From Nitratidesulfovibrio termitidis HI1 (GTDB lineage Bacteria; Desulfobacterota; Desulfovibrionia; Desulfovibrionales; Desulfovibrionaceae): a stretch of 64,000 nucleotides of DNA. Under the pieces are notes generated by a model, which was given only the letters and a program-made list of their open reading frames with translations, made no database searches and was not told where the DNA came from. The stretch's first letter is position 1; the number at the start of each line of letters is the position of its first letter. Made by a program: the position numbers and the translations under genes. This document shows positions 1-3,792 of this stretch, one piece after another. Where the stretch lies: positions 590,388 through 654,387 of the forward strand of contig NZ_KI632512.1 of NCBI RefSeq assembly GCF_000504305.1. The letters run 5' to 3'.

Positions 1-1357
1 GCAGCAGGGTGGCCAGGGCCGTGGTGCTTTCGCCCGCGTCCTGCGACAGCCGCTGGATGGACGAGGCCAGCACCCCCAGGGCCTTGCCCTTTTCACCGGT
101 ATGTGCGGCGCGGATGCTGGCGTTGAGCGCAATGAGCTCTATCTCGTCGCCGACGTCTTCTATGTCTTCAAGAAAGGCGCTCATCTGCGCCACCATCTCG
201 GCCACCTCGACCATGACGTGGCCCATGCGCTCGCCCTGCTCGGCCAGCGACAGCATGCGCGTGGCGATTTCCGACACGCTGCTCTCCATGTGGTCGAGAA
301 CGGCAGTGCCCCCGCAGCCTTCGCCCAGGCACGTTTCGTCCGAAAACCCGCCAGTCCGCTGGCCCACCCCGCGCACGCTGGCGGCAATGGCCGTCAGTTC
401 GCGCCGCAAGGTGGAAACGGCATCGGAAAAACTGCCCCGGGCGTTTTCCAACTGGGCCTGCTGCAAGGCGCAGATGTCCGCAGCCACGGCCAGTTCCACG
501 GCCAGGGCCTCGTCGGCTGGGGGTTCGTCCGAAGTGCCGGGGGTGCTGGCGGAAGAATTGGCGGGGGAACCTTCCAGACCCGCGCGGGCGTCGGCCAGGG
601 CTTCCTCCACGTGTTCCACCTGCTGGCGCACGATGTCGTGAAATTGCAGGGATCCTATGATGTGTCCCATGGAAACGGCAATGTCCGCCGTGTGGCCGCG
701 CACGTCTTCCGAGGCCTTGCGGCTGCCCTCGGCCACTTCGTGCAGGGTGTCCATGTTGTCACGGATGGAGCCGAACACCGAATAGGCGCATTCACGCTGC
801 ATCTCGTGCATCTCGCGGGTGCTGGCCTCCGCCTTTTCGGCCAGGGTGTCCAGCGTCTTGGCCTGCTGCATGATGCGATCGGAATATTCGACGATCTTGT
901 AGCCCAGCTTTTCCACATCGTCGGCAAGGGTGCTGAAGCCGCGCCCGTCGGAGCCCAGGCGGGCGCTTTCGATGCGCGTGGAAATGCCCAGCATCTGCAG
1001 GGTGCGCACCACGCGGGCGTAGTCGCGTATGGATTTGGAAAGTTCGTGCACCAGTTCGCGGGCGCGGGCCAGCATGGCGACGTCTTTGGCATCATCGTCC
1101 ACGTGGCAGAGGGTCTGCATGGCGTCCAGTTCCGCCACCAGTTCTTCCAGAATATGGCGTACGGTGTCGCCCGAGGCGATGTGGTTCAGCTTCTGGCTGT
1201 CCGCGGCGATATCCTGCACCCGCATGGCCACGTCCTGCAATTCCGCGCCAAGGGCAAGAAAGTCGTCTTCGCGCCGCTGCACCAGCAGGGCAAGCCCGCT
1301 GCCCACACGATCAAGCCGCTCCCGCACCTCGCGCGCCAGCGCCGTGTATTCCTGCAT
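1..1357 (-). CDS. Cytoplasmic chemoreceptor-like signalling protein (partial, C-terminus beyond window)
   Basis: This is the first 452 codons of a minus-strand gene that runs off the left edge. It starts at an ATG at 1357 preceded by GGAG. The visible protein is almost entirely helical with heptad-like spacing and no hydrophobic segment, so it should be cytoplasmic. Near residues 404-425 it reads ELIALNASIRAAHTGEKGKA, a recognisable but degenerate version of the methyl-accepting chemotaxis hairpin tip (compare [14 protein letters not shown] in the next gene). Two related helical blocks are joined by a Ser/Pro/Ala linker around residue 245. Its neighbour is an H-NOX chemoreceptor on the same strand, so a role in sensory clustering or adaptation is plausible, but the ligand is unknown. 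The divergent tip leaves CheA/CheW coupling uncertain. Confidence 0.75.
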   Translation of the reverse strand, partial: MQEYTALAREVRERLDRVGSGLALLVQRREDDFLALGAELQDVAMRVQDIAADSQKLNHIASGDTVRHILEELVAELDAMQTLCHVDDDAKDVAMLARARELVHELSKSIRDYARVVRTLQMLGISTRIESARLGSDGRGFSTLADDVEKLGYKIVEYSDRIMQQAKTLDTLAEKAEASTREMHEMQRECAYSVFGSIRDNMDTLHEVAEGSRKASEDVRGHTADIAVSMGHIIGSLQFHDIVRQQVEHVEEALADARAGLEGSPANSSASTPGTSDEPPADEALAVELAVAADICALQQAQLENARGSFSDAVSTLRRELTAIAASVRGVGQRTGGFSDETCLGEGCGGTAVLDHMESSVSEIATRMLSLAEQGERMGHVMVEVAEMVAQMSAFLEDIEDVGDEIELIALNASIRAAHTGEKGKALGVLASSIQRLSQDAGESTTALATLL

Positions 1358-1686: not shown

Positions 1687-3792
1687 TCAGTCCAGAAAGC
1701 GGATTTCCGCTCGTGCCACATGTTCGCTCTGCGGGGTCAGCCTGACATCGACCTTCCGCTTCATGAAGTCCGCCGCACCAAGGATGATGCCCTCGAAATA
1801 CTCGAACAGCGCGCGTGAGGATCGATAGGTCATCACAAGGGTGTTCCCCTTGTCCTCATAGGTGAACGCTGGTGGATTGATGCCGGGATAGTCCTTGGTG
1901 AGCTGCTTGTGCAGTGCATCCATGCCCAGGTACAGTTCCTTCAGGTCGTTGGTCTTGAAGTAGCGGCGGTACATCCTGTAGAAACCATCCATGGTGTAAC
2001 GTCCCAGCTTGCGGAACACTTCCCTGGTCGAATCGCCCGTGATGCGCGAAAGCTCGTGGGCCATCTGCTTCAGCACCTGGTCCGGGTAGTTGGCGGTGGC
2101 CAGAAACACGGGGTTGCCCATGGCCTCCAGCATCTTGGCCACCACATCGCGCCCGTAGTTGCCCACGGCGAATTCCTGCATCAGCTTGGGCAGCACCCCG
2201 CGCATCTGCCCCTGCGACTTCCACAGCTTGGTCGCGTCCACCTTGGCCTCGCTGAAGCGCACGGCCAGGGTCAGCAGTTCCTGTGAAAGCCCGGCCAGAT
2301 ACCGTGTGGCCGCAGAGGCCTGCACCGCGCCCGTTTCCGATTCACCGGCCACCGTGGCGATGGCCTCCACCGCGCCGGTGACTTCCTCTGCCGAGGCGGA
2401 TTGCTGCTCCGCCGCCGTGGCAATCTGGGCCACCCGCTCCACCATGTCCTGTATGCGCGCAGTGATGCGGCTGATGGACTGCCCGGCTTCATTGGAAAGA
2501 CGCGTGCTTTCGGTCACCTGCCCGCCCGTAACCTGCATGGACTGCATGGCGTCGTGCGAACGCTGCTGAATGGTGCGCACGGCCTGTTCCACTTCCTTGG
2601 TGGCGGACATGGTCTTTTCGGCCAGCTTGCGCACCTCGTCGGCCACCACGGCAAAACCGCGCCCGGCGTCCCCGGCGCGGGCCGCTTCGATGGCCGCGTT
2701 CAGCGCCAGCAGGTTGGTCTGGTCGGCGATGTCGTTGATCACCCCGATGATGCGGCCGATCTCGCCCGCCTGACCGTCCAGCTGGTTCAGTTCCGTGGCC
2801 AGCCGGTCGGCCGATTCGGCCACGGCGTTGATGCCTTCCACGGCGCGCTGCACCAGTGTCGCGCCCGCCGTGGCATCGTCGCGGGCGCCCTGGGCGGCGT
2901 CGGAGGTGGCCGATGCGTTGCGCGCCACCTCCAGCACGGTGTTGCGCATCTGCTCCATGGCCGTGGCCACCGACGCGGCCTGCTCCTTCTGACGTGCCGC
3001 CCCCCGTGCCTGCTCGTCGGACGAGGCGGAAAGTTCTTCGGAAGCGGACGCCACCCGCTGGGCCAGCCCGCTGATATCGGCCCCCGTGGCCAGCAGTTCC
3101 TGCTGGCGCAATTCCAGGGCCGAACATTCGCGCCGCGAGTCACTGTGGTCGAACAAGGTCACCACCGCACCGGTCACGATGCCGTCGGCATCCACCAGGG
3201 ATTCGGAAAGCACCTGCAACGACAGGGGTACCCCGGACGGGGTGGCCAGTTCCACGTCGCGGTGCATGGAAGTGGTGGGGAGCACGGGCATGAAATCCAG
3301 CGCGGCTTTTGCGGACCCGTTATTCCCCGCGCCCCCCGCAAGTGCCTCGGCCGGGGTGCGCCCGACCATCCGTTCCTCCGACAGTCCCGCCAGGGTGACC
3401 ACCCCCTTGCTGACCCTGGCGATGCGGCCCGAGGCATCCAGCAGCAACACCGGAGCGGTCATGACGTCGAAGGCCGTATGCAGTTGAGTGGTATCCGCCT
3501 CCAGCCGGGCTGCGGCCTCCAAAGCCGGGTGAGGGGCCACATCCCGGGCGCGCATGTCGTCCCGCACCCGCACCGGCCCCAGCGCTGCCAGTTCGGTTCT
3601 CAGCCGCTCCAGCGACGATGCGGTGGCACGCATCGCGTAGGCAATGACCCCGGCGGTCAGTGCAAGACCGCCGCACAAGGCGATGCCGGACCACGCGACG
3701 CCGCCCGGAAGCGCAAGACCGGCGGCGAGAAGGCTCAATGCGGCACCAAGTGCGGCCAGGACAATGGGAAAGGGCGAACGCGAGTTTTCCAT
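1687..3792 (-). CDS. Methyl-accepting chemotaxis protein with PAS and C-terminal H-NOX haem domain
   Basis: A 701-residue chemoreceptor. Two transmembrane helices lie at about residues 9-28 and 33-52 with almost no periplasmic loop. They are followed by a HAMP-less linker, a PAS-like domain (about 95-215) and a cytoplasmic signalling domain (about 230-510) whose tip reads [20 protein letters not shown]. Residues 530-701 form an H-NOX (haem-NO/oxygen binding) domain. The proximal haem ligand is His628 in [10 protein letters not shown], and the propionate-binding YxSxR motif is Tyr656/Ser658/Arg660. Aligned without gaps to the Thermoanaerobacter Tar4 H-NOX, Tyr665 matches its distal oxygen-binding Tyr140, which favours O2 as well as NO binding. 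Likely output is chemotaxis away from oxygen or NO in an anaerobe (inference). The start at 3792 has GGAG upstream. Confidence 0.93.

Follow-up and report, generated by a model that had tools for sequence, protein, structure and literature searches.

Within the 64,000-nucleotide stretch of Nitratidesulfovibrio termitidis HI1 DNA analysed here (the window), a gene with an ATG start encodes a 701-residue chemoreceptor. The receptor carries an intact H-NOX domain fused after the C-terminal arm of its MCP signalling domain, and its gene heads a che gene cluster on the same strand. The reading that we favour, and hold to be probable, is that the protein is a membrane-anchored cytoplasmic receptor for O2 (and NO) that serves directed swimming and feeds its own Che pathway. 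Such a receptor would probably let cells steer relative to oxygen, and we view its arrangement as an uncommon form of a design that is already known. We counted in favour of an O2 receptor that the H-NOX domain is much better conserved than the PAS domain, that the spacing between the MCP hairpin tip and the H-NOX domain is nearly constant, and that the gene is linked to cheA. We counted against it that Trp9 and Asn74 are missing in 94 of 94 fusions, and that the distal Tyr is replaced by Phe in two fusions, of which one has lost the proximal His as well.

The domains of the receptor were identified with Pfam, and the features are collected in Table 1. The MCPsignal match scored 160.4 bits, and the HNOB match (residues 532-684) scored 120.8 bits against a cut-off of 25.5 (E 7e-35). 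The PAS_4 match scored 24.7 bits against a cut-off of 23.1 and is weak taken alone. A preliminary description of this DNA had placed a PAS domain before the signalling unit and the H-NOX domain after it, and the Pfam matches bear out this order. That description also supposed that two inputs may be integrated; a second input through the PAS domain is at most possible, because this domain is poorly conserved. The signalling part has both the domain match and the conserved hairpin tip expected of an MCP (tip conservation 0.93). Both MCP arms matched the methylation-site consensus pattern, at residues 248-265 and 458-474, giving predicted sites. The membrane anchor was identified from hydropathy alone. 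The hydropathy profile had no clear periplasmic part, and Pfam returned no HAMP match in the receptor. The N-terminus probably consists of two membrane helices joined by a very short loop, and hence would have no periplasmic sensor domain. Genome-wide, we found 41 MCPsignal matches and a single HNOB match.

Table 1. Features of the H-NOX receptor gene and its downstream neighbour, in window positions.
Feature	Position	Strand	Basis
Chemoreceptor TM-PAS-MCP-H-NOX, 701 aa	1687..3792	(-)	ORF and Pfam
Hydrophobic N-terminus, residues about 6-54	3631..3777	(-)	Kyte-Doolittle peaks
PAS domain, residues 108-220	3133..3471	(-)	PAS_4
MCP signalling domain (residues 297-481) with its hairpin tip at about residue 377	2350..2904	(-)	MCPsignal, tip motif
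H-NOX domain, residues 530-701, reaching the extreme C-terminus	1690..2205	(-)	HNOB, PDB matches
Met538 at the Tt Trp9 position	2179..2181	(-)	Alignment to Tt
Thr600 at the Tt Asn74 position	1993..1995	(-)	Alignment to Tt
His628, proximal haem ligand position (Tt His102)	1909..1911	(-)	Alignment to Tt
YRSSR, residues 656-660, YxSxR motif (Tt 131/133/135)	1813..1827	(-)	Alignment to Tt
Tyr665, distal tyrosine position (Tt Tyr140)	1798..1800	(-)	Alignment to Tt
Downstream gene, 606 aa, two MCPsignal stretches, runs off the window	1..1357 (L108:6925-8745)	(-)	

We compared the H-NOX domain with PDB sequences, and the ten best of 27 matches were Tt/Cs H-NOX entries (E 3.8e-16 to 1.1e-14). The best was the Thermoanaerobacter H-NOX (Tt), whose numbering we use for pocket positions. 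An AlphaFold2 model of residues 480-701 was built from six sequences (mean pLDDT 74.6, with the linker at low confidence). Foldseek placed H-NOX structures first for this model, with an E-value of 1.1e-11 to Tt H-NOX. In VIA-align, where we treated rows with Z within 1 of each other as tied, the model aligned over 170 residues both with the Nostoc H-NOX (Z 18.0, rmsd 3.3) and with the Cs H-NOX entry 6cww (Z 17.6, rmsd 3.6). Tt/Cs entries as a whole scored Z 15.7-17.6, and the first non-H-NOX rows scored Z 8.3. We conclude that the C-terminal domain, as modelled, has the H-NOX fold. Chance resemblance or a mis-framed ORF was ruled out by the Pfam, PDB sequence and Foldseek matches.

We then read the haem pocket from the alignment to Tt H-NOX. 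The residues that mark the H-NOX family are present: the proximal His628, Pro641 (Tt Pro115) and Y656, S658 and R660 of the haem-propionate YxSxR motif. In addition, Phe604 corresponds to Tt Phe78, and Leu534 stands at the position of Tt Ile5. His628, the YxSxR motif and Tyr665 thus occupy the H-NOX positions assigned to them in the preliminary description. Its assertion of a gap-free alignment did not hold, since the alignment has gaps of three residues near Tt 32-34 and of one residue from the His to YxSxR. Residues 102 to 140 of Tt span 38 positions and residues 628 to 665 here span 37, and the stretch from YxSxR to Tyr665 aligns ungapped. The same description spoke of an oxygen-binding distal tyrosine. 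The tyrosine is present, but the label is too simple: the residue set named for O2-binding H-NOX proteins is Trp9, Asn74 and Tyr140 (PMC1435932), and this receptor has Tyr140 but neither Trp9, which is Met538, nor Asn74, which is Thr600. With Trp9 and Asn74 absent, the Tt pocket is not reproduced. Binding of O2 by this domain is likely from its sequence, but because these two residues are replaced, the strength of binding cannot be borrowed from Tt. O2 may bind weakly in this pocket, or may oxidise the haem quickly.

The receptor is one of many. Of the 149 family genomes sampled, 60 had HNOB, with one match each; the order sample had it in 98 of 297 genomes, and the class sample, which largely overlaps the order sample, in 97 of 297. 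The phylum sample had HNOB in 12 of 395 genomes, six inside the family and six outside, and the latter frames were short (186-246 aa). For the pocket count we used 111 loci drawn from all four of these taxonomic samples and from four plasmid records, after dropping L169, which is the same place as L209. These comprised 94 C-terminal MCP fusions, one N-terminal fusion (L210, Acetoanaerobium) and 16 loci without an MCP motif in the frame. The last group held four family or order receptors, namely the short frames L004, L054 and L182 together with L044, which the motif pattern missed yet Pfam assigned to MCPsignal. It further held two short frames, L191 and L208, that belong to a different family within the order, and a stand-alone set of ten, drawn from other families of the phylum (six), the same family (one) and plasmids of other groups (three). 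A one-off fusion is ruled out by the family-wide HNOB matches and the 94 C-terminal fusions. In these 94, the H-NOX domain comes after the MCP motif and is trailed by 0-14 residues.

The haem-associated residues were strongly conserved among the C-terminal fusions, which are related to one another and are not independent events. His occupied position 102 in 93 of 94, and Y, S and R of YxSxR were each found in all 93 fusions having the residue. At position 140, 91 fusions have Tyr and 2 have Phe, and one contig-cut frame lacks the residue. The distal Tyr noted in the preliminary description is therefore a conserved feature, present in 91 of the 93 fusions with the residue compared with none of the ten stand-alone H-NOX proteins, which carry Leu, Met, Val or Cys at this position. 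Position 74 was Thr (83), Ser (10) or Ala (1) and never Asn. Position 9 was Met (57), Ala (16), Thr (14) or another residue (7) and never Trp. The sole N-terminal fusion in the count, L210, has Trp-Asn-Tyr as in Tt. The two fusions with Phe for the distal Tyr, L059 and L207, belong to genus g5. In L059, Tyr replaces the proximal His while Thr is retained at position 74; in L207, Phe at 140 occurs together with Ala at 74. L207 would fit position 74 acting together with the Tyr, in one case, and both are possible natural loss-of-O2 or loss-of-haem variants.

We aligned 55 of the receptors, and all 55 had both MCPsignal and HNOB by Pfam; 46, including the window receptor, also had PAS_4. Conservation was scored as the mean share of the majority residue, with zero where the window residue differs from the majority. 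It averaged 0.93 for the MCP tip, 0.50 for H-NOX and 0.17 for PAS, the last somewhat lowered by a few frames that are short at the N-terminus. Named relatives, with 93-99% identity over the H-NOX part, were Nitratidesulfovibrio liaohensis, N. oxamicus, the Desulfovibrio MAG Rs511_bin20 and Desulfovibrio sp. A2, and a Solidesulfovibrio magneticus MAG was 54% identical over the same part. Nitratidesulfovibrio, Desulfovibrio and Solidesulfovibrio are anaerobes, which supports a strict-anaerobe lineage and agrees with the anaerobe supposed in the preliminary description. In a quick tree of a thinned set of 63 rows (51 labelled C-terminal, the short frame L191 included), the C-terminal fusions clustered together (SH-aLRT 95), and the two N-terminal fusions formed a separate group (99). 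Long branches meet at the split between them and the outgroup branch has a support of 21; the two arrangements may share a common origin or may have arisen separately. We also observed one genome (G656, locus L209) with two HNOB matches, in a 901-aa frame and a 723-aa frame. In another, 43%-complete genome (G570), an MCP-like frame is followed within a few bases by L191, a short H-NOX frame whose pocket is of the same type; the receptor may be split there, or the sequence may contain errors.

The position of the H-NOX domain relative to the membrane follows from the geometry of the MCP. The signalling domain of MCPs forms a folded-back hairpin. The tip motif GRGF lies at residue 377, about midway between the end of the PAS domain (about 220) and the start of the H-NOX domain (530), and the two arms are of similar length, about 150 residues. 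With arms of similar length in a hairpin, the C-terminal arm should return the H-NOX domain to the membrane-proximal end of the stalk, beside the PAS domain. The preliminary description had put the domain at the far end of the receptor, opposite to the membrane, and this placement is very probably wrong. Among the 55 receptors, the spacing from tip to H-NOX was 153-156 residues in 50 of the 51 in which it was measurable. The linker between the C-terminal arm and the H-NOX domain is short (about residues 518-529).

Downstream of the receptor gene and on the same strand, mostly outside the window, we found in order a 606-aa MCPsignal protein, CheY, CheA, CheR, CheB and a small protein of the nitrite/sulfite reductase family. 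The preliminary description makes no mention of this cluster. A consensus scan, which is weak evidence, found no terminator or promoter between the receptor and the downstream gene. The 606-aa protein has no strong membrane-helix signal (highest 19-residue hydropathy 1.26), and an MCP-like protein of this type sits between the receptor and CheY/CheA in genera g1, g11, g15, g32 and g38. The reductase-family protein that closes the cluster has 243 residues (L108:1142-1873, outside the window). We examined neighbourhoods in the 60 family genomes, using stretches of up to about 19 kb, some of them contig-cut, and a phmmer limit of 1e-12. CheA was found in 27 of the 60, always downstream of the receptor and on the same strand. 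The linkage was present in 8 of 21 genera and included all sampled receptor-bearing genomes of g1, g5, g11, g14, g15, g29, g32 and g38. Measured between stop-to-stop frames, the gap from receptor to CheA was -81 to 44 bases in g14 and g29, 101-137 bases in g5, and 2.2-3.2 kb in g1, g11, g15, g32 and g38, where the MCP-like protein and CheY intervene. Direct adjacency, seen in the three genera g5, g14 and g29, argues for co-expression of receptor and CheA. CheA was absent from the fetched stretch in 33 of the 60 genomes, some of these stretches being contig-cut, and a dedicated pathway is thus not general. In these 33 genomes we found no other conserved neighbour, since the largest cluster of neighbouring frames, which are unannotated and may include shadow ORFs, spans only 8 genomes. 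A further point against our reading comes from D. vulgaris, where a mutant of cheA1, which may or may not be the orthologue of the cheA described here, was unaffected on soft agar; the conditions under which CheA1 functions were said still to be explored (PMC3944678).

We propose the following mechanism for an O2 receptor. Ferrous haem in the H-NOX domain would bind O2, which Tyr665 would hold, with Thr600 taking over the helper role of Tt Asn74; the same haem would be expected to bind NO as well. Ligand binding would move the H-NOX domain. Because the first H-NOX helix follows the C-terminal arm, to which the short linker joins it, this movement could be passed on to the stalk base, next to the PAS domain. 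A shift at the stalk base would then alter CheA activity at the distant tip. CheA would signal through the clustered CheY, and CheR and CheB would provide adaptation. Cells would be expected either to gather in a band at low O2 or to swim away from it. According to the literature, strict anaerobes have O2-binding H-NOX proteins with a distal Tyr that are attached to MCPs and probably act in O2 chemotaxis (PMC12329717, PMC8738867). D. vulgaris bands at 0.02-0.04% O2 (PMC4383621), by our own estimate roughly 0.2-0.5 micromolar, and we hypothesize that the altered pocket is tuned to this range.

The replaced pocket residues could also be explained if the protein were primarily a receptor for NO, supplied by denitrifying neighbours or nitrite chemistry, with O2 binding weak or incidental. 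Two of the three O2-binding residues are missing, Tt H-NOX binds NO besides O2 (PMC9814294), and a nitrite/sulfite reductase-family gene closes the che cluster in the window genome. However, this gene turned up in 6 of 7 neighbourhoods from g1 and nowhere among the remaining 53, and the fusions keep the distal Tyr almost without exception, whereas NO-type H-NOX proteins are described as lacking it (PMC12329717, PMC8738867). We consider an NO receptor unlikely. The persistent Tyr argues for holding O2, and so also against the idea that O2 quickly oxidises the haem and that a ferric or haem-free state is the signal. Oxidation-activated H-NOX proteins have been described (PMC7108781, PMC12329717), and an incomplete Tyr network could speed oxidation. 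Oxidation of Cys as in the Vibrio protein (PMC7108781) is improbable here, because there is no Cys in the window H-NOX nor among the nearly invariant columns of its relatives. A redox sensor is thus, in our judgement, very unlikely. Finally, the PAS domain might be the real sensor and the H-NOX domain a passenger or dimer brace. Other receptors use their PAS domains for O2 or redox sensing (PMC13401364), and PAS_4 is widespread among the aligned receptors, but the PAS domain is far less conserved than the H-NOX domain, whose haem residues are nearly invariant; we give this explanation hardly any credence.

The O2 receptor that we favour resembles several known systems. The Thermoanaerobacter/Caldanaerobacter (Tt) receptor, from a strict anaerobe, likewise joins an MCP to an H-NOX domain that has the proximal His, YxSxR and distal Tyr. 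In Tt, as in the Acetoanaerobium relative L210, the H-NOX domain is N-terminal, whereas here it is C-terminal, and the Trp-Asn-Tyr pocket of Tt is replaced by mostly Met, Ala or Thr at position 9 and Thr or Ser at position 74. Tt H-NOX binds NO, CO and O2 and is a proposed O2 sensor whose function was not yet demonstrated (PMC9814294). Stand-alone bacterial H-NOX proteins, NO sensors of facultative anaerobes, belong to the same domain family and share the haem-ligand motifs, but are separate short proteins, and none of the ten examined has the distal Tyr. The aerotaxis receptors Aer and Aer2 also combine PAS and MCP domains with an intracellular O2-related input (PMC13401364); in these, PAS (with FAD or haem) is the sensor and there is no H-NOX domain. 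The NCBIfam Vibrio Aer2 model scored 114.4 on our receptor, over the MCP part, against a cut-off of 1200. DcrH of Desulfovibrio vulgaris, from the same bacterial group, also has a cytoplasmic O2-binding domain after the MCP, but this is a di-iron hemerythrin, and DcrH has a periplasmic domain and HAMP (PMC9388753), whereas the receptor here has a predicted haem domain and gave no Pfam match to hemerythrin. Judged by domain content, the likeness to DcrH is one of layout only. The window genome itself encodes a DcrH-like receptor with a C-terminal hemerythrin (L098, 2154266-2154817 region). Its hemerythrin region, with the start set by eye, begins about 155 residues past the tip, as H-NOX does here, so that in this genome the same end of MCPs carries O2-type sensor domains of two kinds.

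H-NOX chemoreceptors of strict anaerobes with a distal Tyr are a known class, and a Desulfovibrio H-NOX was reportedly listed in early surveys of the family (Iyer 2003; Boon and Marletta 2005). What is new here is the C-terminal placement, the Thr/Ser pocket and the che linkage. In a search that mostly covered papers available without subscription, we found no literature match for these three features and no title or abstract opening on a Desulfovibrio H-NOX receptor. H-NOX is absent from the main text of a 2026 aerotaxis review (PMC13401364). C-terminal O2-sensing domains on MCPs were already known from DcrH, for which a role in aerotaxis has so far been no more than proposed (PMC9388753).

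It is documented that strictly anaerobic sulfate reducers form bands in O2 gradients and show aerotaxis (PMC4383621, PMC4287179). The receptor evidence for this behaviour is thin, and the H-NOX receptor family is a conserved and testable candidate. The natural pocket variant could reveal residues besides the Tyr that set O2 affinity, and the C-terminal attachment raises the question of how a signal that enters an MCP at its end governs the kinase. More tentatively, and with considerable doubt, these receptors might form a separate Desulfovibrionales line of gas chemoreceptors. Its wiring would be reversed relative to Tt, the H-NOX domain driving the MCP through its first (distal-side) helix, joined to the C-terminal arm, and not, as in the Tt type, through its C-terminal end. 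Its Tyr-plus-Thr/Ser pocket would be tuned to the sub-micromolar O2 where these anaerobes band, and it would have its own CheA in eight genera. If this is true, such a line would be a missing receptor for aerotaxis in sulfate reducers.
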